Source of the DNA: a virus
Length of the DNA: 39,934 nucleotides
Virus record (IMG/VR): IMGVR_UViG_3300020034_000042
Location: 1-39,934 of that record
Reading direction: 5' to 3' (one strand)
Position numbers and translations under genes: made by a program. Shown piece after piece: positions 5,258 to 39,934 of this stretch. How positions within the stretch are numbered: position 1 is the stretch's first letter; every line of letters starts with the position of its first letter. The notes under the pieces were generated by a model, which saw nothing but the letters and a program-made list of their open reading frames with translations, was not told the origin of the DNA and ran no database searches.

Positions 5258-6157
5258 TTATCCTCCGTCGCCGAATGGTCCGTCACCGAACGGGCCCATG
5301 CCGAACCCGTCGAGTTCCGGGGGTGTCGCCGGGCACAGAACCTCGCCCTGGAGAAGGTCCAGGAACGTGCCGGGCGTCGAGTCGAACGCCGCGTAGGTGG
5401 GGAAAGCGTCCTCGATCGCGCACCAGTTGGCGCAGGCCGTGCCCTGTACCGGACCCAGCGGCCGGTCGACGACCTCGAACGGCACCGACCAGGCCCGGAT
5501 CGGGATGCGCTGGTCGCGCGACCCGTACACCATCTTCAGGGTGCCCGGCTGGAGGAAGTGGTCGTGCCAGCCGTACTCGGCCGGCAGCTGGAGCAGGAGC
5601 GGGCCACCCGCGGTGAACAGGTCGTACACGCGGTCGATGGCGTCCAGGGTGCGGGTGAAGAACGTCATCGAGCCGGACGCGAACTTGCGGCGCGCCCACA
5701 CATCGGCCGGGGTCTCAGAGTTGAGGACGGGGAAGAGCCCGGCATCGGAGTCCTGGTCGATGTCACCGAGGCCGCCCCAGATGAACTCGGGGTCGGGTGT
5801 GGTGCAGCCGGTCGCGTGCCCGTCCGTGATGTCGCAGAAGTCGAGGACGATGTCCGCCCACGGCCGACCGGGGTCCTTCAACCACACCCCGGTGAACGGG
5901 GGGATGGTGGCGGTCAGGTTGATAACCCCGCCGGTCTGCTCCCCCGTGACGCGGTACCAGATCGGCACCCCGATGGGGGCGGTCGAGTCGACGTAGACGC
6001 CGATCTCCCCCAGCAACGGGACGTGCTCGGCCAGGGTGATGAACCCCTCGGTGGCCGACGTGGTGGACCGTTCGACCGTCATGGTCGTGTTGGTGCCGGG
6101 GGACGCCACGAAACTGACTGTGAGGGTGACGTCGTGGGACTCGATGGGCGGTGGCAC
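5258..6157 (-). CDS. Minor tail protein (distal-tail-like)
   Basis: 299 aa, GTG start at 6157 sharing a base with the TAG of the tape-measure gene. The first 90 residues are beta-rich. The middle has WADIVLDFCDIT and WARRKFASGSMTFFTRTLD, then GPLLLQLPAEYGW, features typical of the first minor tail protein after the tape measure in actinophages. The C-terminus ends with a Gly/Phe/Asp-rich tail (FGDGPFGDGG). It probably forms the ring that connects the tail tube to the tip. It contains several Cys residues, in line with other virion proteins here. Confidence 0.6.
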   Translation of the reverse strand: MPPPIESHDVTLTVSFVASPGTNTTMTVERSTTSATEGFITLAEHVPLLGEIGVYVDSTAPIGVPIWYRVTGEQTGGVINLTATIPPFTGVWLKDPGRPWADIVLDFCDITDGHATGCTTPDPEFIWGGLGDIDQDSDAGLFPVLNSETPADVWARRKFASGSMTFFTRTLDAIDRVYDLFTAGGPLLLQLPAEYGWHDHFLQPGTLKMVYGSRDQRIPIRAWSVPFEVVDRPLGPVQGTACANWCAIEDAFPTYAAFDSTPGTFLDLLQGEVLCPATPPELDGFGMGPFGDGPFGDGG

Positions 6158-8874
6158 TAGAGCCTCACTCCCTGTGCGGCAACGCGGGCGTTGCGCTTGT
6201 TGGCGGCCTCAACCCGTGTGGTCACGAACTGGTCCACCGCCTCGTTCCCGATGGTCACCAGGATAGTGGGGGCCAGCACGTTGCTCGTGCTCGGGGCGGT
6301 GACGGAGGAGATGGTCTGAGTGAACCCGGGCAGCGCGCCCGTGATCCCCTGGAACTCGGCCTTCACGCGGGGGATCGCCTTCTGGATTCCCTTCAGGAAC
6401 CCGTCCATGACCATCACGCCGGACGGGATCAACAGGGAGCGGTCCGTGTCGGCCGGGCCCTTCCAGTCCGGGATCTTGGACGTGATGTCGCCCAGCTCGC
6501 TGATCAGGCTTCCCACCCGGGACTGGATACCGTCGATGAGCCCTGAGATGAGGCTCTGCCCAGCACTGAAGAGGAGACTGCCGAGGTTCCCGAGCGCACC
6601 GCGCAGGCGCCCCGGGAGGCCGGCCAGTGCGGCTACAGCCCGGTCGGACATGTTGCGGACCCCCTCGACGAACGAGGATGCTCCCTCGCTCACGCGCGCT
6701 CGCAGCGCGGTGACGTAGCCGAGCAGGGTGGAGGAGACGCGGCCGACCATGTCGGAGATGAATACGACGATGAGGTCTCGCATGTTGCGCACCGACTGCG
6801 CGGCTTCGGATGTGGAGTGGAAGAAGTCCCCGCGCAGTGCGTCGATGAGGAACTGGATCACCGGGAGCACCACGGTACGGATGATGGCGGCCAGTCCCGA
6901 CAGGGTCACGGCGAGCAGCGCGAGGACGATGACGGCACCCTCCGTGATGACCGGCATCAGTTTCGCGCTGAACGCGAGGGCCAGTTCGAGGACCTGCGCG
7001 ATGAGCGGCGCCGCAGCCACCAGCAGGAGCGCAAGCTGCTCGCCGAGCGACGCGAACTCGGGAGCCAGCAAAGCCAGTTGCTCCGTCAGGACAGGCAGGA
7101 TCTCTTGTGCGAACTGGACGAACGGAGGGAGGATCGTGGCCACGATGCCCGGCAGCTCAGCCAGAACCGGAAGCAGTACGGCTGCGAGCAGGTCCGCGAA
7201 CTGCTGGATGAACGGGGTCATCGCCTCGAACACCGCGCCGAACGCCTCGAACTGGGGGACCAGGACCGGCAGGATCTCCGCGATCAGCTGCGCGGCCAGG
7301 GTCACGATGGGGAGCAGCGCGATGACCAGCTTGCCGAACGCGTCGGCCAGGCTGACCAGCACCGGGCCCAGCGCCTTGAAGATGTCCGTCAGTGCCGAGC
7401 CCAGCACGGTCACCAGTTGCTGCGCCGGCTCGGCGAGCTGGATGATGACCTGACCGATCGTCTCCAGCGCGGTGGCGACCAGCGGGCCAACAGTCTTGGA
7501 GATCAGGGCCATTGTGTCGGCCAGATCCCCGAGCGCGGTCTGGAACGTCTTGCTCGCCGTGACGTCCTCGAACTGCTGAGACACCCGCTCCAAGGTGTCG
7601 AACAGCCCGGCCCCGTTGACCGTGACGGCCCCGATGATGTTGCCGAGGCCGCCGAGCACGTTCCCGCCCACGCGCCCGAGCTGAGCAAGGGCGTCCACGG
7701 CCTGACCGATCGCGTCCTCAAGCGCCCCGGACTCGAACGCCCCGGCCAGTTTCTCCGTGATGCCCGCCCCCGCGCGCGCGGCAGCCGCCGTGATGCGGTC
7801 GAACGACGGCCCGGCAGCGGCCGCGAGCTGTAGGAACGCGGTCGCGACTTCGGCGGGGAGCCCCTTCAGGTTGTCGATGCCGGTCGTCGCACCCTTGAGC
7901 GCGGCCCCCAGCGTGCCGTCGGCGGACAGCCGGACGGCTGCCTGCGCCACGGCGATGCCCATGGCGTTCAGGCTGGTCGCCGTATCCGTCAGGGCGGTGC
8001 GCACGATCGGCAGAGCGGTGGTGGCCAGAGCCGTTACGGCCTGATCGAAGTTCTTGAACAGGTTCTCTTGCACGTCCAGTTGCAGGCCCTTGAACGTGTC
8101 CTTCAGGCCGATGATCTCGGTAGCTGCGGCCTTTGCCGACGGGGAGAGCTGATCGAGGGCTTCCTGGACCTTGGCCATGTCGGCGTCCGGCTTGAATGCC
8201 TCGGTGATCGCGTCGCCCACGCCGAGGAACCCGAGCTTCAGAGTCTGCGTCGCGAGCTGCATCGCCAGGATGCCGGACGTCGCCACAGCCGCGGCCGGCA
8301 GGATCTGCTCGGCCGCGGCAGCCAGTCCCGCGATGAGCGGTACCGCGGTACCGGCGGCGGCGCCCACCGTTGCGATGTTCTTGCCGAGAGAGCCGAGCGC
8401 TCCGGCCACAGCACCGAGATCGGAGAGCAGCCGCCGGTTGATCTCGACGTCGATCTCGATGTCGGGGGCCGTGGCGTTGACGACCGCCACCAGTTCATCC
8501 ACGTCGCGCGTGACCTGGCGCAGCGAGGCGGGCCCGTTCAGGGCGGCGGTCAGGAGCAGGTCGTCTACGGTTCCGCCGGTGTCGACTGTGTTGACCAGGT
8601 TGTCGAGGTCGCGTGTGACCGCCCGAATGGACGCCTGCTGATTCAGGGCGGCCTGAATCAGCAGGTCATCCGCTCCGGCCTGCGCCCCGCTGATCACCCG
8701 GGCCAGGTCGCGATCGATCTGATTCAGGGCGGTGGTGGTGTTGAGGACCGCGTTGACATCGAGGTCGCTCATGTCGGCCTGTGCCGCGAGCAGAACCCGG
8801 TTCAGGTCCCGTTCCAGATCGGGCAGTGTGCGGGTGGCATTGACGACAAGGTCAACCTCTGCTTGCGAAGTCAC
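6157..8874 (-). CDS. Tail tape measure protein
   Basis: 905 aa, the second-longest protein in the window, with a GTG start at 8874 after GGAGGCG. Residues about 6-143 contain four degenerate 33-35-residue repeats built around AALN, then RDL or RDV. The rest is largely helical, very rich in A, L, V and I, with long hydrophobic stretches (about 155-215 and 470-690) and a C-terminal region with IPDWKGP. Length, composition and position after the two chaperone genes identify it as the ruler that sets tail length and is ejected with DNA. At about 1.5 angstrom per residue the tail would be roughly 135 nm. No lytic transglycosylase or peptidase motif was seen. Confidence 0.9.
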   Translation of the reverse strand: MTSQAEVDLVVNATRTLPDLERDLNRVLLAAQADMSDLDVNAVLNTTTALNQIDRDLARVISGAQAGADDLLIQAALNQQASIRAVTRDLDNLVNTVDTGGTVDDLLLTAALNGPASLRQVTRDVDELVAVVNATAPDIEIDVEINRRLLSDLGAVAGALGSLGKNIATVGAAAGTAVPLIAGLAAAAEQILPAAAVATSGILAMQLATQTLKLGFLGVGDAITEAFKPDADMAKVQEALDQLSPSAKAAATEIIGLKDTFKGLQLDVQENLFKNFDQAVTALATTALPIVRTALTDTATSLNAMGIAVAQAAVRLSADGTLGAALKGATTGIDNLKGLPAEVATAFLQLAAAAGPSFDRITAAAARAGAGITEKLAGAFESGALEDAIGQAVDALAQLGRVGGNVLGGLGNIIGAVTVNGAGLFDTLERVSQQFEDVTASKTFQTALGDLADTMALISKTVGPLVATALETIGQVIIQLAEPAQQLVTVLGSALTDIFKALGPVLVSLADAFGKLVIALLPIVTLAAQLIAEILPVLVPQFEAFGAVFEAMTPFIQQFADLLAAVLLPVLAELPGIVATILPPFVQFAQEILPVLTEQLALLAPEFASLGEQLALLLVAAAPLIAQVLELALAFSAKLMPVITEGAVIVLALLAVTLSGLAAIIRTVVLPVIQFLIDALRGDFFHSTSEAAQSVRNMRDLIVVFISDMVGRVSSTLLGYVTALRARVSEGASSFVEGVRNMSDRAVAALAGLPGRLRGALGNLGSLLFSAGQSLISGLIDGIQSRVGSLISELGDITSKIPDWKGPADTDRSLLIPSGVMVMDGFLKGIQKAIPRVKAEFQGITGALPGFTQTISSVTAPSTSNVLAPTILVTIGNEAVDQFVTTRVEAANKRNARVAAQGVRL

Positions 8875-13766: not shown

Positions 13767-15530
13767 TTACGCCTCGGTGGTGCAGTTGATCGAGGCGGCA
13801 CCAGTGATACCGCCGACGCAACCGGCGGCGGTGTACAGGCGCAGACCGGGGCACGGGTAGATGGGCGCGAAACCCTCCTCCGCGAACAGGGCCGTGAACT
13901 GGTTGGTGGCCAGGCTGGCCGCGTCGTAGACGTTGGTCAGCGTGACGACGTCCTGACGGGCGACCGCGACCGAACCGGCCGGGTAGGCCAGGAACTGGAC
14001 CGAGGACGGCAGCGCGGTCATGTACGGCGCCGTGGCGTCGCCACCCGGGAAGGCGGGGGCCAGCGCGCCACCGGTGATGAGACCGTCCTGCCAGCCGCGC
14101 ACGAACTGCGGGCGGACACCGCGCGTCGAGAAGAGGGACGCGATGGTCGAGTCCTGGACGTTGAGCAGGTCGACGCCGGTCCGGCGCGACAGGTCCGCAC
14201 GAATCTGGGCGATGACCCAGTACGGCAGAACGATCTCAAGCGTCGAGTTGAACGGCATGAGCTGCTGGTAGATGAGGTCGGTGCGCGCGAGCTCGACGGC
14301 CGCGAGCAGGCTGGACGTGAAGGAGTCGCCGGGGCCTCCCGCCGGGGTCGGGTCCGGGTTGGCGAACACGGTGGCCGCACCCGCGGTGGCCAGCATGTCG
14401 GCCAGGATGAGCCGGTTCATCTCCTGCTCGTGGGCAGCCAGAAGGCCGTCCTGCCAGAGGTTGACGAGCTCGGGGAAGCCGGCGGCCTGGAGGAAGCTGA
14501 CCCGGATGCAGAGCGCCATGACATCCAGGCGCCGGTCGGTGAAGGCCGGGCAGGGGATGACGGAGCAGGTCTTCGGCGTGTTGGCGATGACCTGAGCTTC
14601 GGTGAGGAAGTTCGAGCCACCCCCGGCCGCGATGGCGTTCGCGTAGATGTCGGCGAACGACGGCTCGTCGGTGTAGTTCAGGCCGCCGCGCCGGGCAGTG
14701 ACGGTCGGCAGGTCGAGGATGCCGGTCGAGCCATCCCACATGCGGCAGAGGTCGTACACGTTCTCGGACGGGGCACACCAGCCTGCGGCGGCGGTGAGGC
14801 TGAGTCCGGAGTCGACGTTGTGCTGCCACTGCTTGGCGAGCGAGCCGCCGTGCAGCCGGGTCTCGGACCGGGCGTGGCGGAGAACTTCCATCTGCCGGTT
14901 GTTGTCGTCGCGCGGCTCGATGGTGAACTCGGCACCGCGGTCACGCTTGAACTGGGCGACCGCGTGGCGTGCACCCTGGCCGCCGCCGCTGCGCCCGTAC
15001 TGCTCGGACGACGCGATGAGCGCCCGGCTGATCTCGGTCAGGCCGTCGTACTCCTGGCCGGCGCTCTTGCCTGTGAAGCCCGCAGCGTCGGAGGAGACGA
15101 ACGCGGTAATGGTGGTGCCGGGGGACGCCTTGATGACCTCGGTCGGCAGGATCGGCTGTGCGGCCATCTGAGCGACGCTCGGGACGGCTACGGCCGCAGA
15201 CACCTGGACGGGGGCGGCAGGCTCCACAGCGGGCGCCTGGACGGCCTGCGGGGCCACGGGGGCGGCGCGGTCCGGGAGGGCGGTGAACTTGGAGCGGGTC
15301 TCGGCCAGGGCGGCGGCTGCGGTCTCACGCGCCGTGATGGCCTCGGAGACGACATCCACGTGTGCGGAGAGGGTCGAGAGCTCGGCCGACTCGTCGACGC
15401 TGAGGGCGTCCTTGGCGGCCAGTTCGGCGCCCCGGGTCTTGGCGGTCTCGTACGCGGCGTAGAGCGCGGTGTCGTCGAGCGCATCAGCGCTGAACGCGAC
15501 CGGCTCGGTGGGCTTGATCTCTTCGGACAT
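13767..15530 (-). CDS. Major capsid protein with N-terminal scaffold-like domain
   Basis: 587 aa. The second ATG (15530, MSEEIKPTEP) is preferred because GGAGG lies just upstream of it. Residues about 15-95 form an acidic coiled-coil domain (ALYAAYETAKTRGAELAAKD), a Pro/Ala/Val-rich linker follows to about residue 130, and the HK97-like shell domain fills the rest. The shell part has an E-loop-like region, a helix with EQEMNRLILADMLATAGA, and near the end VQFLAYPAGSVAVARQDVV. The delta-type N-terminal domain probably serves as scaffold and may be cut by the protease encoded upstream. There are several Cys residues, one near the C-terminus. Confidence 0.8.
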   Translation of the reverse strand: MSEEIKPTEPVAFSADALDDTALYAAYETAKTRGAELAAKDALSVDESAELSTLSAHVDVVSEAITARETAAAALAETRSKFTALPDRAAPVAPQAVQAPAVEPAAPVQVSAAVAVPSVAQMAAQPILPTEVIKASPGTTITAFVSSDAAGFTGKSAGQEYDGLTEISRALIASSEQYGRSGGGQGARHAVAQFKRDRGAEFTIEPRDDNNRQMEVLRHARSETRLHGGSLAKQWQHNVDSGLSLTAAAGWCAPSENVYDLCRMWDGSTGILDLPTVTARRGGLNYTDEPSFADIYANAIAAGGGSNFLTEAQVIANTPKTCSVIPCPAFTDRRLDVMALCIRVSFLQAAGFPELVNLWQDGLLAAHEQEMNRLILADMLATAGAATVFANPDPTPAGGPGDSFTSSLLAAVELARTDLIYQQLMPFNSTLEIVLPYWVIAQIRADLSRRTGVDLLNVQDSTIASLFSTRGVRPQFVRGWQDGLITGGALAPAFPGGDATAPYMTALPSSVQFLAYPAGSVAVARQDVVTLTNVYDAASLATNQFTALFAEEGFAPIYPCPGLRLYTAAGCVGGITGAASINCTTEA

Positions 15531-15727: not shown

Positions 15728-16126
15728 ATGACGAATCAGGGAAACATCGCAGATGACGTGTGGGCGGAGGCGCTCTACTGGGGCCGCCTCACGGGCACAC
15801 AGGAGAACGATCTGCTGGAGGCGCTGGTCACCCGGGCGCTACGCGCACCCCAGGCCATCCCGGTGCAGCCAGCAGCCGCATGGATGCGCAAGGCCAAGAG
15901 GATCCGGACGGGAGGGCCCCGCATCGCGGTCGCCGTGCTCAACGGGCGCAACTGGAACGAGCTCGACGACAGGCTCCGGGCGTTCGAGGGGGCGGAGCAG
16001 CTGCACGGTCCCACGCCCCGATCCTGGTATGTGCTCCCGTACGCCGCTCTTGACGCAATCCAAACGCTTTTCTCTGACTTTCCCGACCGGGTGCGCATTT
16101 GCATGATCGACTCACACACGCCCTGA
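15728..16126 (+). CDS. 132-aa protein of unknown function, moron-like
   Basis: Starts with ATG at 15728, 13 nt after the putative -10 box, with no good ribosome site. It is the only plus-strand gene inside the minus-strand late block. The sequence has a helical N-terminus (DDVWAEALYWGRLTGTQ), a basic middle (AWMRKAKRIRTGG) and a mixed C-terminus with SWYVLPYAALDAIQTL. No transmembrane segment or known motif. Its own operator-controlled promoter and the structured element immediately after the stop make it an independent unit that could be expressed when late genes are off. It may be a regulator or a host-modifying or exclusion protein. The operator at its promoter would allow autoregulation if it is the repressor. 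Confidence 0.7.
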   Translation: MTNQGNIADDVWAEALYWGRLTGTQENDLLEALVTRALRAPQAIPVQPAAAWMRKAKRIRTGGPRIAVAVLNGRNWNELDDRLRAFEGAEQLHGPTPRSWYVLPYAALDAIQTLFSDFPDRVRICMIDSHTP

Positions 16127-16220
16127 CCTGCAACTAGTCACGTCAGACAGCAGCTCAGTTAACGGGAGGATTGAAGAGCCTCACGTGGGGTTAACCAGAC
16201 TGCTGTCTGACGTGACTAGG
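16124..16220. ncRNA. Structured element A (97 nt)
   Basis: Arms CTAGTCACGTCAGACAGCAG (16134-16153) and its exact complement (16200-16219) enclose a 46-nt loop. The loop holds AGTTAACGG, GAGG pairing with CCTC, and GCCTCACGT. It aligns without gaps to element B at 34358-34454. The stems differ at six positions by paired changes while the loop blocks and the flank TGACCTGCA are kept. It lies between convergent gene ends, so it may also terminate transcription. Which strand is functional is unknown. Confidence 0.7.
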
Positions 16221-16248
16221 TAACGGATAGGTCACGGACAATGTGGGG

Positions 16249-16414: not shown

Positions 16415-17920
16415 TCACTTCCCCTTCGCGTTGATCCACGCCCACTTGGCGCGCGCTGCCATCATCATGTCCTCAGACTCCTGCGCCTGATCCGGCAGGG
16501 CACCCTCCACCGGCTTGATGCCGAACGTGCCGATGAGCGAGCGCTGCACCCCCAGCGCGAAGCTGACCCTGGCCCGCGGTACCGGGAAGCCGGGCGTGTT
16601 CACCGAACACACCGCGATCATCTCCAGTGACCCGCCGATGCTGCGCCAGTCCCCCGACACCGGGCTCGACATGAACTGTTCGCGCCGCGTCGGGTCCGCC
16701 GAGGGGAGCAGCCAGCCGCTCACCCAGATGCCGAACTCGTCCTCCCCGGCCACCACCTTCGCCACCGCTGCGCCCACGTTGTCGTAATGCTCCGCTGCGG
16801 CCATGAAACCCAGCGAGGCATCCGCGTGCCCTCCTCCCACCGTGAGCGTCCCCACGGGCAGCACAGCCCCGTCCTGGACCCTCTGAGTGCCGACGTGGAA
16901 GTAGCTGTACCCGGTCGGGCTGGTCGGTGCCGTCACGCATCCCGGCATCCCGACATGGCACTGACCCCACGGCGCGATGTGCCCGAACACCCGGCCCGTG
17001 TCCGTCACCGTGAGTGGCGTCACCCGGTCCACGTCCGGCGCAGCGAACCACTCGGCGGGCGGCAGCACCTCAGCGACCGAGGCCGACGCGGCCAGGGCGA
17101 AGGGAGCATCCCGGTCCATGCGCCCGTAGATGCCCCTCAGTACCCGCTGCATGGCCTCCGCGTCCTGCGGTGTCCCGTTGCCCCTTGCTCCCTGCGTGGC
17201 AGCCGCAGCCGCGAACACACCGCGAGGCACGATGGTCAGCGTCCCGTCGATGACGTCCGCGATCCCGAAGCCGTAGGCGCCGCGCGTCTCGGGATTGGCG
17301 TCGTCGTCCTTGCGCAGGAACGCCCTGGCGTAGCGCGCCCAATCCGTAGTGTCCCCGTTAGTTGCCCAGGCGAACACCCGGCCCGCAGCCGCTGCTCCGT
17401 CCCACGGCCGCGCCTCATCGGCGATCGGCATGTCCGCCCACCCCGTGGTGCGCACCGATGCCATGAGGGAGTACACCAGCTCGTAGGAGGGCCCTGTCGG
17501 CATCGGCTCGACCGGCAGCGGGTCCAGGGTGAGGGACACGTCGGCGAACGCGGGGATGGCTACCAGGGTCGCGCCGGCCACCCGCCACCGCGTGATCGTG
17601 GCGTTGCCCTCCTCATCCGCCACATACTCGATGTCGTCCAGGTCGACGGACGGGCCGATCACGCCTGCCTCGATGGAGTCGACGGCCGAGTACTCCGCCG
17701 TATCGAGCAGCGACCCGGTGGCCGTGATCATGTCGTTGCCGATGGACAGGGTCTCGATGCGGCCGATCACGACGGACCCGCCGTGCCCGTCTCCGGTCTC
17801 GCGCTGGTACAGCAGCGGCAGTGGGAGGTCCCGGCTTGACCCTCCGCCTTCTGCGAGCAGTCGCCCGTCTCCGGTCGGCACGCCCAGCCGGGCGAGCACC
17901 GCGCTCCATGTGCGTGCCAT
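16415..17920 (-). CDS. Capsid maturation protease
   Basis: 501 aa, starting with ATG at 17920 after GAGGAG. The longer frame upstream is a shadow of the MuF gene. The N-terminal ~140 residues have the prohead-protease pattern: PLLYQRETGDGHGG, strands around IGRIETL, then GSLLDTAEY, GPSVDLDDIEYV and a closing AIPAFADVSL. The large C-terminal part includes HIAPWGQCHVGMPGCV and GHADASLGFMAAAEHYD, as in long actinophage proteases. It would cut scaffold and capsid N-terminal domains in the prohead. Catalytic residues cannot be assigned with certainty by eye, and the long C-terminal region may act as an internal scaffold or minor capsid part. Confidence 0.7.
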   Translation of the reverse strand: MARTWSAVLARLGVPTGDGRLLAEGGGSSRDLPLPLLYQRETGDGHGGSVVIGRIETLSIGNDMITATGSLLDTAEYSAVDSIEAGVIGPSVDLDDIEYVADEEGNATITRWRVAGATLVAIPAFADVSLTLDPLPVEPMPTGPSYELVYSLMASVRTTGWADMPIADEARPWDGAAAAGRVFAWATNGDTTDWARYARAFLRKDDDANPETRGAYGFGIADVIDGTLTIVPRGVFAAAAATQGARGNGTPQDAEAMQRVLRGIYGRMDRDAPFALAASASVAEVLPPAEWFAAPDVDRVTPLTVTDTGRVFGHIAPWGQCHVGMPGCVTAPTSPTGYSYFHVGTQRVQDGAVLPVGTLTVGGGHADASLGFMAAAEHYDNVGAAVAKVVAGEDEFGIWVSGWLLPSADPTRREQFMSSPVSGDWRSIGGSLEMIAVCSVNTPGFPVPRARVSFALGVQRSLIGTFGIKPVEGALPDQAQESEDMMMAARAKWAWINAKGK

Positions 17921-17922
17921 GG

Positions 17923-18732
17923 TCACTCCTCTGTTCGGAACTGTCGGTCGGTCCAGTCGATCTGTTCGCCGAGCACGACCGGGAGCATCGTGCAACGGCA
18001 GTTGATAACCTCTCCTGCCGGTCCGGTCGGGTCGCCCGGGAACATGAGCTGTGATGTGCCCACCCGGAAGGGCTCGGAGAGCAGGGTGCGTTGCTTGTCC
18101 GCTGCCCGATGCGTCGGCCGGGTGCGGCTGTCCTCGGTGGCCAGCCACATTTTGAAGGGCGCCGGGTCGCCCCGCTGCTGGGCGTCCAGCTGTGCTCCCC
18201 GGAAGACGCCCGCGTTGACCGCGCCCATCGTCTCGGTGCGTGCCACGGTCACGGCGCGGTTGGTCCAGCGCTCCGATCCGGTGGCGGTGAGGATCTGGTT
18301 GACCCCCGCTGTGACCTCCCGGATTCCGTCTCCTTCGCGGATTCCGCGCTCGATCTCAGCGACTACAAGGCTGTAGACCTCGTCAGGAATTCTCACCAGA
18401 CGGTTACCGGCTGTGTTCAGATATGACTGTACGTAGCTGTCTGTGATCGGATCGCCCGCCCCGGTGACCCGCCGGAACGCACCGCGCAGGGTCTGAGTGA
18501 TGGTCGGCAGCACCCGGACGTTCACCTCGTCCGTCCAGAATGCCTGTGCGTCCGACACACGGCCCGGGTCGAGGTTCTCGCTCCCCGACACCACACCGGG
18601 CCTGACGCGGTCCAGGAAGCGGCTCAGCGACCGGAACCAGGCACGCCCCGTGCGCAGCTCTCCGTCCGTGATGATGCTCAGTGCGCGCAGTCGAGCGGGT
18701 AGGTGCGGGTCACGGCCCGGCGGGGTGGTCAC
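17923..18732 (-). CDS. MuF-like minor capsid protein
   Basis: 269 aa, GTG start at 18732 overlapping the TGA of the portal gene. It carries the MuF signature: VARTETMGAVNAG, then MWLATEDSRTRPTHRAADKQ, FPGDPTGPAGEVINCRCTM. The conserved Cys-Arg-Cys is present near the C-terminus. Proteins of this family are packaged in the head and associate with the portal. No toxin or other C-terminal extension is present. It is translationally coupled with the portal and followed after two bases by the protease start. Confidence 0.85.
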   Translation of the reverse strand: MTTPPGRDPHLPARLRALSIITDGELRTGRAWFRSLSRFLDRVRPGVVSGSENLDPGRVSDAQAFWTDEVNVRVLPTITQTLRGAFRRVTGAGDPITDSYVQSYLNTAGNRLVRIPDEVYSLVVAEIERGIREGDGIREVTAGVNQILTATGSERWTNRAVTVARTETMGAVNAGVFRGAQLDAQQRGDPAPFKMWLATEDSRTRPTHRAADKQRTLLSEPFRVGTSQLMFPGDPTGPAGEVINCRCTMLPVVLGEQIDWTDRQFRTEE

Positions 18733-23046: not shown

Positions 23047-23873
23047 GCGTCCAGCTTGGACGAGACCACCTTGAGCAGCGCCATGAGCGCGGTCTGCTGG
23101 GTCCTCTGCTCCGCAACCAGGGCGGTCAGGGCGTCCACCTTGTCGTCCAGCCCGCGCAGGTATGCGTAGGTGTCCCGCGTCTCGCCCTGGTCGGTGTTCT
23201 TGTACGCCCACACTTCCTTGGGTGTCAGATCGTTCACGGTGGTGTCTCCTGTGTCGTTGGTCCCCTTGGCGGCGGACAGGATGGCGGCGATCGGGAAGGC
23301 CCCGGGGTCGCCGTGGTCGTTCTCGGGCACGTGCTGGTGCCCGCAGTGCCCCTTGAAGCCTTCCCACTGGGCGCCGGTCATGCGCACCGGGCTGTTGCCA
23401 TAGCTGGAGGGGTAGGCCCGGAACGTGACGCCGGAGGTGAGGGGCACGCCGTGGTTGGCGTTGGCCCAGGCGGCGAAGTCACCGAGCTGCTCGATCACCC
23501 ACGTCGGCAGGTTCGGGGTGTACAGGTGCTCCTTGCCGGCCCAGTTCTGGTGGGTGGTGGGGTCGCACGTGCCGACGAGTTCGATCTGCACGGCGTTGAG
23601 CGTGTTGGTCTCGACGCCCCCGGCCTTGTTGACGAGCGCGCGGGAGCTGGTGTCGAAGTCGAAGTGCTGGTACCAGCGGAGCTTCTTGGTGGGGAAGTCG
23701 GGGAGCGCGGTGAAGTTGGGCGCCTCGCTGCCGCCGTTGTAGCTCGGCAGGGTCCGGCCCTCTGTGGTGTGCCAGACGACGACGTTGGACTCCATCGAGT
23801 CGCCGGGGTACTTCCCCTGGTACCGGTACGCCTGGGATGCGCCGGGGTACTTCTGTGGCCCTGTCTTGGTCAT
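23043..23873 (-). CDS. Endolysin, N-acetylmuramoyl-L-alanine amidase
   Basis: 276 aa, ATG at 23873 after GAGGGGG. The catalytic domain is of the Amidase_2/PGRP zinc type: VVVWHTTEG with ligand H35, AVQIELVGTCD, and GHCGHQHVPENDHGDPG (175-191), giving a second His and Asp189. It cleaves the amide between muramic acid and the peptide in the host wall. The C-terminal 60 residues (DLTPKEVWAYKNTDQ, then a heptad helix) resemble the short oligomerisation or anchoring tails of actinophage endolysins. No signal peptide, so release depends on a holin. Confidence 0.85.
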   Translation of the reverse strand: MTKTGPQKYPGASQAYRYQGKYPGDSMESNVVVWHTTEGRTLPSYNGGSEAPNFTALPDFPTKKLRWYQHFDFDTSSRALVNKAGGVETNTLNAVQIELVGTCDPTTHQNWAGKEHLYTPNLPTWVIEQLGDFAAWANANHGVPLTSGVTFRAYPSSYGNSPVRMTGAQWEGFKGHCGHQHVPENDHGDPGAFPIAAILSAAKGTNDTGDTTVNDLTPKEVWAYKNTDQGETRDTYAYLRGLDDKVDALTALVAEQRTQQTALMALLKVVSSKLDA

Positions 23874-23915
23874 GCGTCCCCCTCATATGGTTGCTGTGTC
23901 CACAGGGTACGCAGA

Positions 23916-23946
23916 AACCCCACCCGAGGCAGAGGCGGGTGGGGTT
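23916..23946 (-). terminator. Hairpin terminator before the late operon
   Basis: Perfect 11-bp stem AACCCCACCCG (23916-23926) with its complement (23936-23946), loop AGGCAGAGG. It follows the stop of the 130-aa gene (23971) and precedes the endolysin gene. It separates the middle operon from the late genes, and on the minus strand the stem ends in GGGTT with a short T run. Confidence 0.8.
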
Positions 23947-23970
23947 CCGTATTGCGGGGACGCAACGGCG

Positions 23971-24363
23971 TCAGTCTATCCGGTACTCCCAGTCTTGTTC
24001 CGGGTAGACGGGGGTAGTTGTGACAGCGGTGTCGTTGCCGTCCGTGATGGTGCGCTTGGTGATGCTGACGGTGGGTGCCCCGTGCTTGACGGAGCCCCAC
24101 GCCTTGAGGGTGAGGACTGCCTTGTCCTCCGTCATCCATCCGTCGACCAGGGGGCTGATGCGGTACTCGGTGACTCGGTTCGGCATCTCGTCGGCCAAGC
24201 GGCTCGGCTCGCCATCAAGGACCGCATCGGCAAGGGCTCGGTAGTCGACCCCGTCCTGCATCTGGCAGGAGTGCACGTCCGCTCCCGAGAGGGATTGAGC
24301 GATGCGGTCGCGGAGTTCGGCACCCGGTGGAGACGGAAGAGGATGCGGGTCGATGTCAGCCAT
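23971..24363 (-). CDS. 130-aa protein, unknown
   Basis: Starts with ATG at 24363, overlapping the preceding small gene by 8 bp. The N-terminus ELRDRIAQSL followed by DYRALADAVLDGE is a short helical module common in hypothetical proteins of Streptomyces and their phages. A beta-rich C-terminal half contains VLTLKAWGSVKHGAP and ends DWEYRID. No enzyme motif. It is the last gene of the micro-gene operon 25165-23971. Confidence 0.65.
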   Translation of the reverse strand: MADIDPHPLPSPPGAELRDRIAQSLSGADVHSCQMQDGVDYRALADAVLDGEPSRLADEMPNRVTEYRISPLVDGWMTEDKAVLTLKAWGSVKHGAPTVSITKRTITDGNDTAVTTTPVYPEQDWEYRID

Positions 24364-25245: not shown

Positions 25246-25509
25246 CTACCTGATCCGCTGGGCGATCCGGCGGGCATCCGTGCGGGTGATGCTCAGCGCG
25301 TCCGCCAGGCCCCGGTGCAGTTCCGCCAGCGTCCTCATTGCCTGACCCCGGCTTCCGTCGATGCGGCCCGCCCGGCGGCTGGCCTTGATTCCGGCGACGA
25401 ACCGGTAGGGGACGGGGTAGGACGTTCCGTCCAAGGTGACCTTGGTGGGCTGCGTGTTGGCTGCGACCTTGGCGGTGATCTCTGCGATCTGGCTGGCGGT
25501 GAGGTTCAT
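25246..25509 (-). CDS. 87-aa MNLT-family protein, copy 1
   Basis: ATG at 25509 after AGGAGTGATC. It begins MNLTASQIAEITAKVAAN, has GTSYPVPYR, then RGQAMRTLAEL and ends RTDARRIAQRIR. It is paralogous to the protein at 29813-30073 throughout its length. Basic and mostly helical, with a possible HTH-like end (LADALSITRTDARRIAQ), so nucleic-acid binding is plausible. It is the first gene behind a class II operator promoter and is followed by a hairpin, so it is probably the most abundant product of its operon. Confidence 0.7.
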   Translation of the reverse strand: MNLTASQIAEITAKVAANTQPTKVTLDGTSYPVPYRFVAGIKASRRAGRIDGSRGQAMRTLAELHRGLADALSITRTDARRIAQRIR

Positions 25510-26277: not shown

Positions 26278-26786
26278 GACGACCCCGGCAGCCAGATGCC
26301 CGACATGTTCGCGGCCGACGCGAGCGGCACAGCCAGCAGGCCGAGGTAGCCCCGCACCAGGCCGGTCAGGATGCCGGCCAGGATGCCCTGTCGCATCGCC
26401 GAGCGGACCGCTTCCCGGCGCCGCATCACCACCACGACGATCGCAGTGAAGACCAGCACCATGGCCAGCCCGCCGTTCGTCAGGGCCAGGACGGACGCGT
26501 TCTGCACCGAAGCGCGATGACCACCGACACCCCAGATCAGGGCCCCGTCACCGAGCCAGCCGCCGCCCCACAGGATCGCGTCCCCGAACCACCCCAGCAG
26601 GCCGCCACAGAGCAGCAGGAGCACGCCGTAGCAGTAGCCGGACAGGAACGGCGCGATGCCGAGCGCGCAGCCAAGGGGGTCCTTGGTGAGCTGCTTGCGG
26701 GTCGGCCACCACGTACCCACGTTGAGCACGATCAGGAACAGGCCGAGCACGAAGGAACCGAGGGTAGCCCCGTCCTTGAAGGTCAC
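26274..26786 (-). CDS. 170-aa polytopic membrane protein
   Basis: GTG at 26786 is chosen since it overlaps the TGA of the upstream gene; a GTG at 26795 is an alternative. About four hydrophobic segments: FVLGLFLIVLNVGTWW, GIAPFLSGYCYGVLLLL, LAMVLVFTAIVVVVM and GLVRGYLGLLAVPLA, with a Gly/Trp-rich loop (WGGGWLGDGALIWG). Such proteins accompany Spd/DUF2637-like proteins in Streptomyces mobile elements, but no family can be named. Confidence 0.6.
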   Translation of the reverse strand: MTFKDGATLGSFVLGLFLIVLNVGTWWPTRKQLTKDPLGCALGIAPFLSGYCYGVLLLLCGGLLGWFGDAILWGGGWLGDGALIWGVGGHRASVQNASVLALTNGGLAMVLVFTAIVVVVMRRREAVRSAMRQGILAGILTGLVRGYLGLLAVPLASAANMSGIWLPGSS

Positions 26787-26962
26787 GGTGTCCACCACCC
26801 CAGCGCCCACGTGAAGCCGAGGAACGCCCACAGGCACAGCTCGACGGAGACACCCCAGACGATCCACTCGGCTCGCTTGCCCGGCTTCTCCGTGAACGCG
26901 AGCCCGACGATGGCGAGCACGGCGAGCACGGCCCACATCAGGAATGTGATCAGTGTGCTCAT
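26783..26962 (-). CDS. 59-aa two-helix membrane protein
   Basis: ATG at 26962 overlaps the stop of the DUF2637-like gene (ATGA). Two membrane helices, FLMWAVLAVLAIVGLAF and WIVWGVSVELCLWAFLGF, are separated by a short basic loop (TEKPGKRAE). It may assemble with the proteins encoded on either side. Function unknown. Confidence 0.6.
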   Translation of the reverse strand: MSTLITFLMWAVLAVLAIVGLAFTEKPGKRAEWIVWGVSVELCLWAFLGFTWALGWWTP

Positions 26963-28076
26963 GACTGTTCCTCCTTCTCGTGCTCGATGGTGAGGGCCGC
27001 GCACAGGCGCTGTGCCCGTGCCGTGCCCGTGCTCAGCTCAGTCTTGATAGCGCGCACGCCGGGCACGCCCTGTGTCTGTCCTGCGAGCACGCGTGCCCGC
27101 TCCATGAACGCTGTGTCCGACGGGAGGAGCACGCCCGTGCGCACGTGCTCGGTGACCGTGTCCGTGAACGTGCTCGCCGGGAACGTGTCCGGCAGCGGGG
27201 GCACGAGGTGGAGCACGGAAGGTGTGCTCGGGTGCTCCACCTCGACGTGCTCCCGCAGACGGTCACCGACGTACGAGCACAACGGGCACGGGATGGTTGG
27301 CGCCGTGCTCGTGTGGATGATGCACTCCCCGCCGTGCCCCTCGCACTCAAGATGCCCGTGCGCGCACACGTCCCAGCGGGCCGCTAGCACGGCCTCTTCA
27401 GCGTGCTCGTTCCAGTCGTCGCCCCACGCCTCGGTCTGTGCCCGGATCTCTTCCTGGGCCGTGCTCGGCTCGTGCTCGGGCACGTGGGCCCACCTTGAGC
27501 ACGTGCCGATGTGCTCGCTCATGAGCACGCCCGGCATGTCGCAGTACGGGCACGTGTCCGTGCTCACCGGTGCGTGCTCGGGCACGGGCGGTGTGCTCGT
27601 GTGCTCGGTCCACAGGGCCGGGTCCGGGTGCGGCCCCTCTACGGTCACGCCTGTGCTCGGGATGCTGTACCCGAGCACGCTGCCGTGCTCGCCCTCGGTC
27701 ACGCCCCACAGAGCACTCACGCGTGCCTCGCCGGGCGTGCTCAGCGCGTGGACACGCCAGAGCACGAGCGGTGCGATCGCGGACACGGCCGTGATCAGGA
27801 TCCAGTCGACGTGAAGCACGCCGGCCGTGACCAGGTGGCTGGCCGCGTTCACGCCGACCATGGCGAGCACGGCCGTGAGCACTTCGCGGTGAGAGCGCAG
27901 TGCGCGCACGGCGTAGGCGTCGAGCGCGCCGGGCACGGCGGCGGCAATGAACTGGTTCATGCCGATCGCCCGTGCGAGTTCGTATTCGGCCGAGGCGGTG
28001 GCCACCAGAGCGAATCCGGCGGCCACCCACTTCAGCCAGTCGTTGCCGCGTCCCCACGCCTTCATGCGGTGAGCAC
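26880..28076. repeat. Dense GAGCAC/GTGCTC motif cluster
   Basis: The hexamer GTGCTC (or its complement GAGCAC) occurs about 34 times in 1.2 kb, usually as CGTGCTCG, against one or two expected at this GC content. It appears in at least three codon contexts (GAG CAC, AGC ACG, GTG CTC), so it is not simply a protein repeat. It covers the DUF2637-like gene and the end of the gene that follows. Confidence 0.7.
26959..28065 (-). CDS. DUF2637-like membrane and zinc-finger protein
   Basis: 368 aa, ATG at 28065 overlapping the upstream TGA. Residues 1-115 have about four membrane segments (WVAAGFALVATASAEYELA, then LTAVLAMVGVNAASHLV and ILITAVSAIAPLVLW) like DUF2637/Spd proteins of Streptomyces plasmids and phages. 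The cytoplasmic part has two C2H2-like fingers, CPYCDMPGVLMSEHIGTC and CPLCSYVGDRLREHVEVEH, and a Cys/His cluster between them (CAHGHLECEGHGGECIIH). The C-terminus is helical and charged. A membrane-anchored DNA- or protein-binding function is plausible. The gene is saturated with the GAGCAC hexamer. Confidence 0.6.
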   Translation of the reverse strand: MKAWGRGNDWLKWVAAGFALVATASAEYELARAIGMNQFIAAAVPGALDAYAVRALRSHREVLTAVLAMVGVNAASHLVTAGVLHVDWILITAVSAIAPLVLWRVHALSTPGEARVSALWGVTEGEHGSVLGYSIPSTGVTVEGPHPDPALWTEHTSTPPVPEHAPVSTDTCPYCDMPGVLMSEHIGTCSRWAHVPEHEPSTAQEEIRAQTEAWGDDWNEHAEEAVLAARWDVCAHGHLECEGHGGECIIHTSTAPTIPCPLCSYVGDRLREHVEVEHPSTPSVLHLVPPLPDTFPASTFTDTVTEHVRTGVLLPSDTAFMERARVLAGQTQGVPGVRAIKTELSTGTARAQRLCAALTIEHEKEEQS

Positions 28077-29812: not shown

Positions 29813-30073
29813 TCAGCGGACCTGCGAGGCAATCAACCAGGCCGTCGTGGCGTCCACGTTCAACGCTGCGGCCAGGTCTGTCCGGGTCCGGGACGCGGCC
29901 CTCATGCCCTGGCCCCGGCCGATGTAGTTCGCGGTCCGGCGAGCGGCGCGGATGTCCCGAGCGATCCGGTAGGGAACCTCATAGCCGGTGCCCGCCACGG
30001 TCACAGGGACCGGATTGCAGTTAGCGGCGGCCCTGGCCTGAATCTCTGCGATCTGACCCGTGGTGAGGTTCAT
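29813..30073 (-). CDS. 86-aa MNLT-family protein, copy 2
   Basis: ATG at 30073 after AGGAGTGATC, the same leader as copy 1. MNLTTGQIAEIQARAAAN, GTGYEVPYR, GRGQGMR and a C-terminus ending LIASQVR align with copy 1 along the whole length (roughly 45 percent identity by eye). Basic and helical. It is the first gene behind a class II promoter and is closed by a hairpin, as for copy 1. Function not recognised; a small DNA- or RNA-binding regulator is a reasonable guess. Confidence 0.7.
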   Translation of the reverse strand: MNLTTGQIAEIQARAAANCNPVPVTVAGTGYEVPYRIARDIRAARRTANYIGRGQGMRAASRTRTDLAAALNVDATTAWLIASQVR

Positions 30074-30142: not shown

Positions 30143-33100
30143 CTACTTCTCGTAGAGCTGACCCCATCGCTCACCGAACACGAACGGCTTGCCCTGACCG
30201 GCCGTGATGCTGACGGGGCGCGAGGCCCCGGCGGGCGCCCACATGCGGGTCATGGCCTTCTGCGCGATGCGGGCGATCTCCTCCCGGTCCTTCTTCGGGA
30301 CGGACAGGATGATCTCGTCGTGGACGATGACGCGCAGCATGGGCAGGATCTCCGGCGCCGTGGCGGCCAGGGTGAGCAGCCCCTCAGCGATCAGGTCCCG
30401 GGTCGTCGGCTGACCGATCATCGCCGAGGACTGGGTGTACGCCCGGCCCACGTCGCAGCGCAGCTTGCGCCCGAACCCGTTGTCCAGCAGCACGCCCGCT
30501 TCTGCCTTCTCCTGCGTCTCCCGCTGCCACCGCACCACGTCGGTGAACGTGCCCCGCATGTACTGGTCGAGGCCCTGAGCGGCCTCGATGGTGACTCCCT
30601 TGGTGTTCTCCACCATGCCGCGCATACCCCGGCGGTACATCCAGCCAAGGTCCAGCGTCTTGGCCGGGGTCCGGTCGACGCCCGTCATGCGGGAGATCTC
30701 CGTGTGGAAGTCGCGCGCCGGGTCGTTCAGGATCGCGATCAGGTTGTGATCCTGCGCGTGGGCGGCGACACACCGGATGTCGATCTGGTCGAGGTCGATC
30801 GAGACCAGGACCTCATCGTCGTCGGCGGTGAGGAAGTACCGCTCGCTGTCCGGCACGCCCTTCTTGAGGACGGTCAGGCCCGGGTCGAGGATCGACCAGC
30901 GGCCGGTCGCCTGGAACGGCAGGAACGCGGGGTGCACCCGTCCGGAGTGGACGTGGCGCAGCACGTTGGCGGCGTTGTTCCTGATGCCATTCATGCCCTG
31001 CACAGCCTCGATGACTGGCACGGCGGCGGGGACGTGCTGCTCGGCGTGGTTCAGCGCGTAGGCCATCGTCTCCTTGGACAGGGACAGCGCCCCGTCCTTC
31101 CCGCGCGGCCAACTGGAGACGGGGAAGCCGAGGGCTCCCAGCGCCTGCTCGAACGCCGCCTTGCCCTGCTTGGTGCGCTGCGGCGCGGCGGCCTCCTTGC
31201 CCGCCATGTTGGTGAGGGGGAAGCCGTGCTCGACCGCGAGCATGGTGCGCCCGGCATCGGCGCGGGCGGAAAGCTCCTCAGCGCGCTTGTGCAGGCCGCT
31301 CACGTCCACCTTGAAGCCGTTCAGCGTGGCCCGTGCGGTGACCGCGCAGACGCGCGCCTCGCGCTCCTCATAGGGGTCGTAGGGGATGGCCGCGTCCAGC
31401 TCTGCCGTGACGGCCAGATCCTCGCGCAGGTACTCGACGTAGCGGGGGTCGTTCGCCGGGATGTGGTCCCACCCGCCGTACTCCTTGGCCAGAGCCGATC
31501 CCAGTCCGGACTTGCCTGGCCGACCTAGGTAGCGCTCGGACAGGGCGTCCATCGAGTACGACTTGAAGCCGGGGCCGGAGCTGGTCTGGTAGCTGGTGGG
31601 CGGGTCGTTCTGGAAGGCCGCGATGCGGAGATCCCGCCCGCCGATGATCGTCTGCTCCACCGGGATGTTGTGGTGGCGGTCCATGGCGATCGAGTCGAAG
31701 AAGAAGTTGTTCACCCCGACCAGGGGCACGGACTTGAGTCCCCGGGTGACGGTCATCATGTCCGTCCGATCCGACGCGTCCACCACCCGCTCGCCGGCGC
31801 CGACCAGCTTCACGAACGTGCCGTAGTCGGTGGCGAACAGGTCATCGGCGTTGCCGGTCTCGATGTCGAACGGGACGAAGCCGTCAGGCTCCTCCTGGGC
31901 GATGTCCAGCCCGGCGGCGCGGCCTGTCCGCACCCGTTCCTCATGGCTGAACGGATCAGGCTCTGTCGGCGCCGGGTCGGGTTCCGGGGAGGGGTCCGCG
32001 CTGAACGGGGAGTCCCCGCCGGAGGATAGTCCCTGGCCCGAGTCCAGACGGACACCGAACCATCCGCGCTGCTGACGCCCGTTCACGGACTTGCGGCCGG
32101 TCGACACCTTGTGCCCCTTCACCATGTCGTGGGAGCCGAAGCGCGTCGCGAACGTCTTATCGTTCCACGGGCGGTGACCCCCCTGTGCAGCCCAGTCATT
32201 GAAGGCCTGGAGCATGGCCTGAGTGTTGGTGAACCCGTCCTGCTCGAACACCAGGCACTCGTCGGAGAACCCGAGGATCTGATCTGTCTCGGCTCGCCAC
32301 TCGCGCGTCTCCCGCTCGACCTCTTCCGGGTTGTCCATCATGCGGCGGCCACGGGCGTACCACGCCATGGCTCCCTCGACCATCCAGGCCAGGGCGGCGG
32401 CGCGGACGTGGGGATCGTTCTGCGCGTACTTCAGGGAGCCGTCGCCGCGCCGGTCCATGTCGCCCGTCAGGGGCTCGGTGGGCTTGCGGAAGGTGTACGG
32501 GAAGGGGAGCAGGGACAGCCGCCGCCACGTGCCGTGGTCCGTCTCAGTGACGACCGGCCGGTAGTTCGTGTTGATAAACAGGGAGTGGGTGGCCAGGAAC
32601 TCCACCGGGTCCTGCCGGATGCGGCGCGCCTTGATGTACTCGGTCCCCAGCACCGTCTTGAGGCGCTGCGTGTTCAGGTGCCGGGCCTCGGGCGTCTCCT
32701 CCAGTACGGCGTACCTGGCCCCGCGCAGGTCCATCAGCTCGGTGGGGTGCGCGTCCGGGGACGCCATCAGGACGCGGTCGGAGATGACCACGCCGTATCC
32801 GCCCATCGCCCGGCGCACCGTGTTGACGATCGTCGACTTGCCGTTCGAGCCGGACCCGTACGCGATGACCAACTGGTCGTCCGCCACGGAGTGCCCAGTC
32901 AGTGCCTGGCCGAGACGGTCCTGGTACCAGGGGAGGATGCCGGCCGGAACGGCGGTGAGCGCTTTGGTCCACATGGGGTGTGTCGCCCCGGGGCGGTACG
33001 CGGCATCCGCGATCTTGGTGATCGAATCGTCCGGACTGAAGGGGCGCAGCTCCCCGGTCGGCAGGTGCACGGTGCCATTGGTGACCGTGAGCAGGTCGGG

Positions 33101-34186: not shown

Positions 34187-34357
34187 GGGTGTTAGCCTTC
34201 CAGTGCAGTGGTGAGTCCCTGCGCGAGAGCCCCGCCGAGCTGAGACCGGCGGGGCTCTCGTCATGTCCAGGAGAGTACGCCGAACCGTACCTCATCGGAA
34301 GCCGTCTTATCCGTCTAGCGCGACGCGGGCTGTTGATCATGGCCCGGAATCGGCTTC
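34187..34357. other. Noncoding region upstream of the polymerase; possible origin
   Basis: No credible gene lies between the polymerase start and element B. The stretch holds a strong hairpin (34224-34260) and, at 34304-34317, GTCTTATCCGTCTA, an extra inverted copy of the outer stem of element B. Repeats of this sort next to a polymerase gene could mark a replication origin or an RNA switch. No promoter with a good -35 and -10 was seen. Confidence 0.4.
34224..34260. terminator. 13-bp stem hairpin before the polymerase gene
   Basis: Perfect arms CGAGAGCCCCGCC (34224-34236) and GGCGGGGCTCTCG (34248-34260), loop of 11 nt. It lies 38 bp upstream of the polymerase ATG on the minus strand, between the HTH gene and the polymerase, so it may attenuate transcription into the polymerase. 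Confidence 0.75.
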
Positions 34358-34454
34358 TGACCTGCACTTAGACGGATAAGACAGGTGTTCAGTTAACGGA
34401 GGAATCACTAGGCCTCACGTAGGTAATACGGAACACCTGTCTTATCCGACTAGG
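34358..34454. ncRNA. Structured element B (97 nt)
   Basis: Arms CGGATAAGACAGGTGTTC (34373-34390) and exact complement (34431-34448), extended by TAG/CTA beyond an A-A mismatch, enclose a loop with AGTTAACGG, GAGG/CCTC and GCCTCACGT. It has the same 97-nt length and pairing register as element A at 16124. The TAG stop of the HTH gene (34450-34452) lies within it on the minus strand. A third copy of its outer stem at 34304-34317 allows an alternative fold. Confidence 0.7.
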
Positions 34455-39237: not shown

Positions 39238-39327
39238 TCCGCAGTAGCTCAATGGTAGAGCGCCAGCCGGTAAGGGTGAGTGGGGCGAAAGCCTCCGAGG
39301 CTGAGGGTTCGAATCCCTCTTGCGGAG
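39238..39327 (+). tRNA. tRNA-like domain 1, isotype undetermined
   Basis: Acceptor TCCGCAG pairs with TTGCGGA (39320-39326); the D arm is GCTCAATGGTAGAGC and the T arm is GAGGG-TTCGAAT-CCCTC. The length of 90 nt fits a class II tRNA, with a GGGGC-GAAA-GCCTC arm. The expected anticodon stem CCAGC has no GCTGG partner, and the 7-base loop CGGTAAG would lack U33 (anticodon GTA if taken literally). CCA is not encoded. It may be a degenerate tRNA or a tRNA-shaped RNA domain. Confidence 0.6.
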
Positions 39328-39399
39328 CAAGGGCCACGATGTAATCCAGCACCATCACGGGTTGCACACGTCCCTTTGTGGCGACTGCTTCAGTCGTGG

Positions 39400-39774: not shown

Positions 39775-39934
39775 ATGAGTCAGGACCCGTTCTCGCAGTT
39801 CCTCTCCGGCGGTCTCGTGTCGGCCAAGTTCCCCACCGTGGGCTACGTGGTCGAGGGCACCGTCACCGCAGCCGCCATGAAGCAGCAGTCCGAGTACGAG
39901 GGGGGCGCCCCCAAGTTCTGGTCCGACGGCTCCC
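39775..39934 (+). CDS. SSB-like protein (5' part; continues at position 1)
   Basis: ATG at 39775 with AAGGAATCAAGG upstream begins MSQDPFSQFLSGG. After 39807 the same codons repeat at positions 1 onward, so this and the entry at 1-495 are one gene of 528 bp on the circle. The real N-terminus can be seen only here. See the entry at 1-495 for function. Confidence 0.75.
   Translation, partial: MSQDPFSQFLSGGLVSAKFPTVGYVVEGTVTAAAMKQQSEYEGGAPKFWSDGS
39808..39934. repeat. Terminal direct repeat, right copy
   Basis: Identical to bases 1-127. It marks the point where the contig closes on itself. Confidence 0.95.

Follow-up and report, generated by a model that had tools for sequence, protein, structure and literature searches.

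Introduction

In the annotated P4 genome (NC_001609), the repeats of the crr element are arranged in the order ++ ... --, with the first pair set at a 9-bp pitch. For pRN1, genetic experiments show that a stem-loop is needed, together with the replication operon, for replication (PMC4234260). Berkner et al. (2014) described how the structure of this stem-loop is kept while its sequence changes; they reported no iterons there, and mention neither a 9-bp repeat nor a co-variation with a protein (PMC4234260). The hairpins ssiA and ssiB of RSF1010 are used by the plasmid primase in strand-displacement replication (PMC4234260). In the Bacillus phage SPP1, a single initiator reads two sites that are about 13 kb apart: oriL lies within the initiator gene, and oriR lies among morons where the portal module borders on the capsid module. 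Initiator bound at the remote oriR has been proposed to stall forks and thereby to trigger concatemer synthesis (PMC6316719).

Here, we analyse two hairpin elements, copy A and copy B, in a phage genome of 39,934 nucleotides (the whole stretch of DNA under study, hereafter the window). We consider that they are probably two matching replication sites, recognised by the P4-family primase-helicase that the phage itself encodes. A literature search of partial coverage found no paper describing such a hairpin pair in actinophages.

Results

Two hairpin elements in one phage genome

The window ends in an exact 127-bp direct terminal repeat (1-127 = 39808-39934) and is therefore a complete phage genome, circularly assembled (or circularly permuted). 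The related genome G001 (L227 and L228) is likewise complete, and direct terminal repeats as expected for circular assemblies are found in G001 (127 bp) and G016 (70 bp) as well as in the window. Relatives of their proteins suggest an actinobacterial host for these metagenomic phages. A tRNA-Tyr gene (anticodon gta) lies close to the map end of the window, at 39238-39328.

A first-pass annotation had aligned 16124-16220 with 34358-34454 without gaps and reported six compensatory double changes in a shared stem. Recomputing the alignment returned the same picture: it is gap-free over 97 nt with 64/97 identities, 20 pairs are Watson-Crick in copy A and copy B alike in the register i+j=107, and double changes between the copies fall at precisely positions 17, 18, 19, 21, 28 and 29. 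The neighbours it had named, a moron-like gene at one copy and the polymerase at the other, were correct. The best 97-mers from two 3-mer-block shuffles of the window gave 53 and 54 identities; the terminal repeat aside, three 97-mer pairs in the window score higher, among small repeated genes (25.5-25.9 and 30.0 kb). The window contains two instances of the loop pattern AGTTAACGG-N-GCCTCACGT, against none in 100 shuffles, and the two element regions fold with z values of -6.2 and -5.3 against shuffles. A covariance model built from relatives finds both window copies at E about 6e-14, both being among its 30 training rows. The small repeated genes at 25246-25509 and 29813-30073 (MNLT..QIAEI...) share DNA stretches that are 90/97 identical (25478, 30042).

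The features of the two loci are listed in Table 1. Copy A contains the 9-mers TAGTCACGT followed by CAGACAGCA, the first of which is degenerate, and copy B contains TAGACGGAT followed by AAGACAGGT. The additional half-copy adjoining copy B is 16/18 complementary to the 5' arm of copy B. This half-copy, the relatives in many phages and the 9-bp repeat within each arm are all absent from the first-pass annotation. The N-terminus of the moron next to copy A looks, by eye, ribbon-helix-helix-like; family searches with this protein, PHROG, Pfam and NCBIfam among them, gave no match. Relatives of the moron are encoded in G022 (23728-24135), adjoining copy A on the opposite strand, and in G001 (26749-27294), directly ahead of the primase-polymerase gene. 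The small HTH protein encoded beside copy B matches the PADLOC model mad1 (E 3e-8) and, more weakly, BldC and excisionase models.

Table 1. Hairpin elements and neighbouring genes in the window.
Feature	Coordinates	Strand	Details
Major head protein, downstream of copy A	13767..15530	-	phrog_777, E 2e-109
Moron, 132 aa, strand opposite to neighbours	15728..16126	+	stop codon within 5' flank of copy A
Copy A hairpin, between protease region and major capsid gene	16132..16221	.	arms 16132-16153 and 16200-16221; 21/22 paired
Head maturation protease-like protein, upstream of copy A	16415..17920	-	phrog_859, phrog_18402 (scanned as longer ORF 16415-18148)
Primase (DUF3854)-SF3-type helicase (D5_N, DUF5906; P4 family)-DNA polymerase A fusion, 1347 aa	30143..34186	-	Pfam, NCBIfam
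C-terminal winged-helix domain of primase-helicase half, proposed iteron binder	32021..32347	-	model pLDDT 81
Additional inverted iteron pair (third half-copy) adjoining copy B	34300..34317	-	AGCCGTCTTATCCGTCTA
Copy B hairpin, between HTH gene and primase-helicase-PolA gene	34367..34454	.	arms 34367-34393 and 34428-34454; 24/27 paired
MerR/HTH_17-like small protein, 68 aa	34450..34656	-	stop codon inside end of copy B

The elements belong to a covarying family

No match was returned by a near BLAST search with 4 kb around copy A or by a distant BLAST search with both elements against named phages. Among viral contigs, many homologues of the major capsid gene have a similar hairpin directly ahead of them, and the stem pattern AGACAG-N-CTGTCTWAYCCGWC matched 37 stretches, in nearly all of which the spacing is equally narrow. 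The exact loop pattern, when searched in viral contigs, found the near-identical L003 and two chance matches inside other genes and nothing else; matches to a looser loop pattern in genome contigs were mostly chance. The element, which might have been absent in all relatives of the window, is thus found in many phages.

These homologues also bear out the earlier expectation of further covariation. In 30 aligned elements, double changes are found at 15/22 pairs, and the observed covariation score was reached by 0/500 shuffles. Paired cells make up 93.8% in these elements, compared with 78.8% in shuffles and 28-39% when the register is slid. RNA stems usually evolve via G-U intermediates. In the outer stem of the 30 aligned elements, G-U is present in 1/566 cells, and double changes are mostly base-pair flips (A-T/T-A and C-G/G-C); the near absence of G-U pairs argues that the pairing acts at the DNA level. 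An Rfam search of the window, in which tRNA alone reached the gathering score, matched the elements to no curated family, and in G001 the element lies in frame within the primase-polymerase ORF. Of the original description as a conserved RNA or DNA hairpin, the hairpin stands, and the evidence favours DNA over RNA. The pairing is most simply explained as a property of the DNA: the arms may be protein sites in inverted orientation, may form a DNA hairpin or cruciform, or may do both. In L192, a hairpin element (6147-6234) is translated in frame within the linker of a fused primase-polymerase protein.

Two copies at conserved places

Exactly two copies, separated by 37-49% of the genome, were found in each of 11 near-complete genomes: by a covariance model and a hairpin scan in the window (G000), G001, G003, G010, G016, G022, G024, G029, G032 and G035, and by an arm search in G042. 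Copy A lies in the head-gene cluster, after the protease region and before the major capsid gene (in G032, the neighbouring gene is a presumed capsid gene), and copy B is flanked by the small HTH gene on one side and the fused primase-helicase-PolA gene on the other. Copy B of G001 and of G016 is inside the primase-polymerase ORF, between the helicase and polymerase parts, and in G040 and G041 it is between split genes. In the more distant G049 and G051, the second copy has a major-tail-like gene on one side and the tape-measure region on the other, still in the late cluster (this neighbourhood is annotated in G051 and partly in G049). G043 likewise carries a pair, with a distance of 27 kb in 56 kb of sequence, and G050, a circular assembly, has a single copy. 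The elements occur in either orientation relative to genes.

The arms are tandem 9-bp iterons

Each arm consists of two tandem 9-bp iterons, which are inverted in the opposite arm. The commonest arm sequence is TAGACGGGT followed by TAGACAGCT; the corresponding pairs are CGGTTACTG and CGGTTACTT in G001 and TGCCAGCAG and TGCCAGCAT in G041, and the arms of L019 and G016 are of the TGGAGGTAA type. When arms are matched against themselves, most peak at lag 9 (6-9 of 10, or 11 of 12), the exceptions being the G016 arms, which peak at lag 10, and the degenerate copy A of the window. The A and B arms within one genome are more alike than arms between genomes (p 5e-5).

Iteron class tracks the end of the primase-helicase

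The fused protein passes the TIGR01613 model (P4-family phage/plasmid primase) with 171.5 bits versus a cut-off of 108.7, over residues 365-679. Pfam found DUF3854, D5_N, DUF5906 and PolA in it, and no archaeo-eukaryotic primase domain. The primase-helicase half ends in a predicted winged helix. Among its best fold matches are the DNA-binding domain of RFX, with Z 10.3, and 1ka8, the origin-binding domain of P4, with Z 9.0 over 84 residues at rmsd 2.5; a model of the full helicase was set aside at pLDDT 61. Winged helices are a common fold. Searching PDB sequences with the C-terminal domain gave nothing significant, and hhalign detected no sequence similarity between this domain and the C-terminus of P4 alpha.

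G001 is a natural chimera relative to the window, with the primase-helicase half and both hairpins swapped and the capsid, HTH and polymerase genes nearly identical. The capsid is 98%, the HTH protein 98% and the PolA half 91% identical, while residues 600-745, at the end of the primase-helicase half, are 31% identical and the iterons differ at both hairpins. With G022, the window shares 33% identity in the PolA half and 59% in residues 600-745, and the iteron class is identical. Among themselves, genomes with class-1 iterons are 48-82% identical at residues 600-745, compared with 15-38% between them and the other classes. Together, these comparisons indicate that iteron class tracks the primase-helicase half, above all its C-terminal winged helix, and not the PolA half or the neighbouring HTH gene. 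The first-pass annotation had looked to the phage HTH proteins as partners of the hairpin; the adjacent one is not supported as the iteron reader, being 98% identical in G001 despite quite different arms. On the sequence comparisons, the co-varying partner of the hairpins is the primase-helicase. In G016, the elements are present yet the primase has no TIGR01613 match.

Hairpins accompany primase-helicase genes

A search with the primase-helicase alignment yielded 37 loci, and a hairpin with a 9-bp repeat was found near the gene in 32/34 loci examined. Each lineage has its own 9-mer, e.g. GTGTCCCAC followed by GTGTCCCAA, or GGAACGGTT in tandem with itself. Hairpins with at least 17/18 pairs number 26 in 109 kb near the gene versus 1 in 241 kb elsewhere, and 25/26 of the near-gene hairpins of this quality contain the 9-bp repeat. 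In most of the distant relatives, the hairpin lies directly downstream of the primase-helicase gene. No clear hairpin was found in G018, which encodes a P4-family primase; there, an inverted repeat that pairs imperfectly (13/18) and contains 9-bp repeats is located ahead of the capsid gene.

Strand skew between the two copies

Extremes of cumulative skew lie near both elements in several genomes. On the strand running from B to A, with the genome mean subtracted, G exceeds C in 13/14 and A exceeds T in 14/14 two-copy genomes, which are related to one another. The sign of the skew is significant against random rotation (p < 1e-5), and also when B is fixed and A is random (p 1e-5 for G-C, 2e-4 for T-A); in eight less related genomes, the values are p 2.5e-4 (G-C) and 0.03 (T-A). 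The change at A occurs mostly within about 3-4 kb of A, inside runs of genes on one strand and also at fourfold-degenerate sites, which argues against gene direction as its cause. Gene content or transcription strength could add to the skew. That the strand leading away from B is the G-rich one agrees with B being an origin and A a place of fork meeting or arrest.

Comparison with known systems

With P4, the window has in common a P4-family primase-helicase, the predicted C-terminal winged helix of which matches that of P4 by fold but not by sequence, and two distinct sites with short iterons, one of which adjoins the primase gene; the ++ / -- repeat order and the pitch of about 9 bp resemble crr. 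The iterons differ, the P4 type 1 repeat being TGTTCACC and those of the window TAGACGGAT and AAGACAGGT. Because its iterons are not the type 1 repeat, we do not class the window element as a P4 ori, but as one that would work like it. Unlike the near-perfect window copies, crr and ori of P4 are not near-perfect hairpins and have layouts unlike each other, and the window differs further in having its primase fused to PolA, a 40 kb genome and its second site in the late cluster.

Like pRN1, pRN2, BIP-1 and BPP-1, the window has a stem-loop of about 90-100 nt with a stem of about 20 bp adjoining a primase/SF3-helicase gene, and the actinophage hairpins, as in the pRN1 type, conserve structure and not sequence. 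In the Bordetella phage BPP-1, we found a stem-loop near the primase gene with TTGCCTCGT twice per arm, i.e. tandem 9-mers; its region is the one proposed by Berkner et al. as the origin region in BIP-1 (PMC4234260). A weaker version of the 9-bp repeat arrangement is present in pRN1. Replicons of the pRN1/BIP-1 type have one copy, whereas the actinophages have two, and their replication proteins carry an archaeo-eukaryotic primase domain where the window protein carries DUF3854. Judged from sequence, the window elements are thus a new variant beside the P4 ori, which has other iterons, and the pRN1 type, which has another primase.

The geography of the window is SPP1-like: one site adjoins the gene of the proposed initiator, and the other is found in the late cluster, with portal/protease genes on one side and capsid genes on the other. 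SPP1, however, uses the initiator gp38, a DnaB-type helicase and the host replisome, whereas the initiator proposed for the window is of another kind, and the SPP1 sites consist of direct repeats and an AT-rich unwinding element and are not described as hairpins. The elements can also be likened, by description, to ssiA and ssiB of RSF1010, short single-strand initiation hairpins that are separate from the iterons.

Discussion

We infer that the elements are bound by the primase-helicase, act in replication and divide the labour between A and B as follows. Each site has two 9-bp iterons in tandem, followed by about 45-50 bp of spacer and then by the same iteron pair in inverted orientation; such inverted pairs around a spacer also make a hairpin or cruciform possible. 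The winged helix that ends the helicase half would bind the iterons, the SF3-type helicase would assemble on the inverted pair and melt the DNA, the primase half would prime and the fused PolA would extend. Copy B, adjoining the gene, would most likely be the main origin, and copy A, roughly half a genome distant among the late genes, would most likely serve either as a second origin or as a place of fork meeting or arrest, possibly by bound initiator as proposed for SPP1 oriR. Each phage lineage would have its own lock-and-key version of the site.

Other explanations were weighed against the same evidence. We regard it as unlikely that A and B are operators, promoters or terminators through which a phage regulator controls transcription of the polymerase and capsid operons. 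Both copies are indeed upstream of these strongly regulated genes, but in G001 and G016 the primase-polymerase ORF contains B, in most of the distant relatives the hairpin follows the primase-helicase gene directly, and in other lineages the second copy is elsewhere in the late cluster. The HTH gene adjoining B offers a candidate regulator, yet the iterons change where the HTH protein does not, and they track the primase-helicase. The skew shift at A could for its part reflect stronger late transcription starting there. It is very improbable that both loci give rise to a structured RNA such as a small RNA, a processing site or a leader: strong covariation and folding energy are what such an RNA would predict, but the changes are mainly base-pair flips with G-U nearly absent, no Rfam family was matched, and the elements sit in both orientations relative to genes and, in G001, in frame in an ORF.

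Inverted tandem repeats and a matched site pair would also be compatible with partition, packaging or recombination. That iteron class follows the C-terminus of the primase-helicase, and that the site adjoins the gene for this protein in 32/34 loci, leaves such a function with little likelihood. We give hardly any credence to a mobile hairpin (MITE- or REP-like) inserted twice; many genomes have exactly two copies in syntenic positions, with arms matched within a genome and different between genomes, which speaks against it, even if repeated hairpins with conserved ends, some of them inside a gene, recall such elements. Integron attC sites, which came to mind from GTTAGAC/GTCTAAC in some stems, were rejected because the motifs are arranged inside out and are not conserved in the rest of the family.

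A matched pair of replication sites read by the primase-helicase would provide testable origin candidates for a large phage group, and would unite the "iteron" origins of P4 with the "stem-loop" origins of pRN1 and BIP-1 in a single arrangement in which tandem 9-bp iterons form an inverted pair. Iteron/winged-helix co-variation would amount to a DNA recognition code that can be read from its many natural variants and from the single natural swap between the window and G001, and the remote late-cluster copy would give the SPP1 idea of a fork barrier triggering concatemer synthesis a second lineage. More tentatively, and with somewhat less than even confidence, we suggest that replicons with P4-family primase-helicases have a common origin grammar that co-evolves with the winged helix, and that many 40-kb actinophages keep the late-cluster copy as a programmed fork-arrest site or second origin setting direction and the concatemer switch.

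The full rule leaves outside it the phiC31-type phages, G050, L306 and L307. Two unrelated phage records, L168 and L173 (G031 and G033), each have one hairpin with perfect 9-bp iterons, TAAGACAGA, adjoining a VapE/PriCT_2 primase-helicase gene, and the design is thus not restricted to TIGR01613 helicases. In phiC31, TG1, phiSASD1 and Dubu, phages with distant homologues, the scan used found no such hairpin. Repeated palindromes of terminator-like look, with the core ACTCACGTGAGT, are present in phiC31 (L263, 27529-27572 and 34781-34837) and TG1 (L266, 25745-25788 and 32630-32673), and in both phages one of them sits between the primase and polymerase genes.
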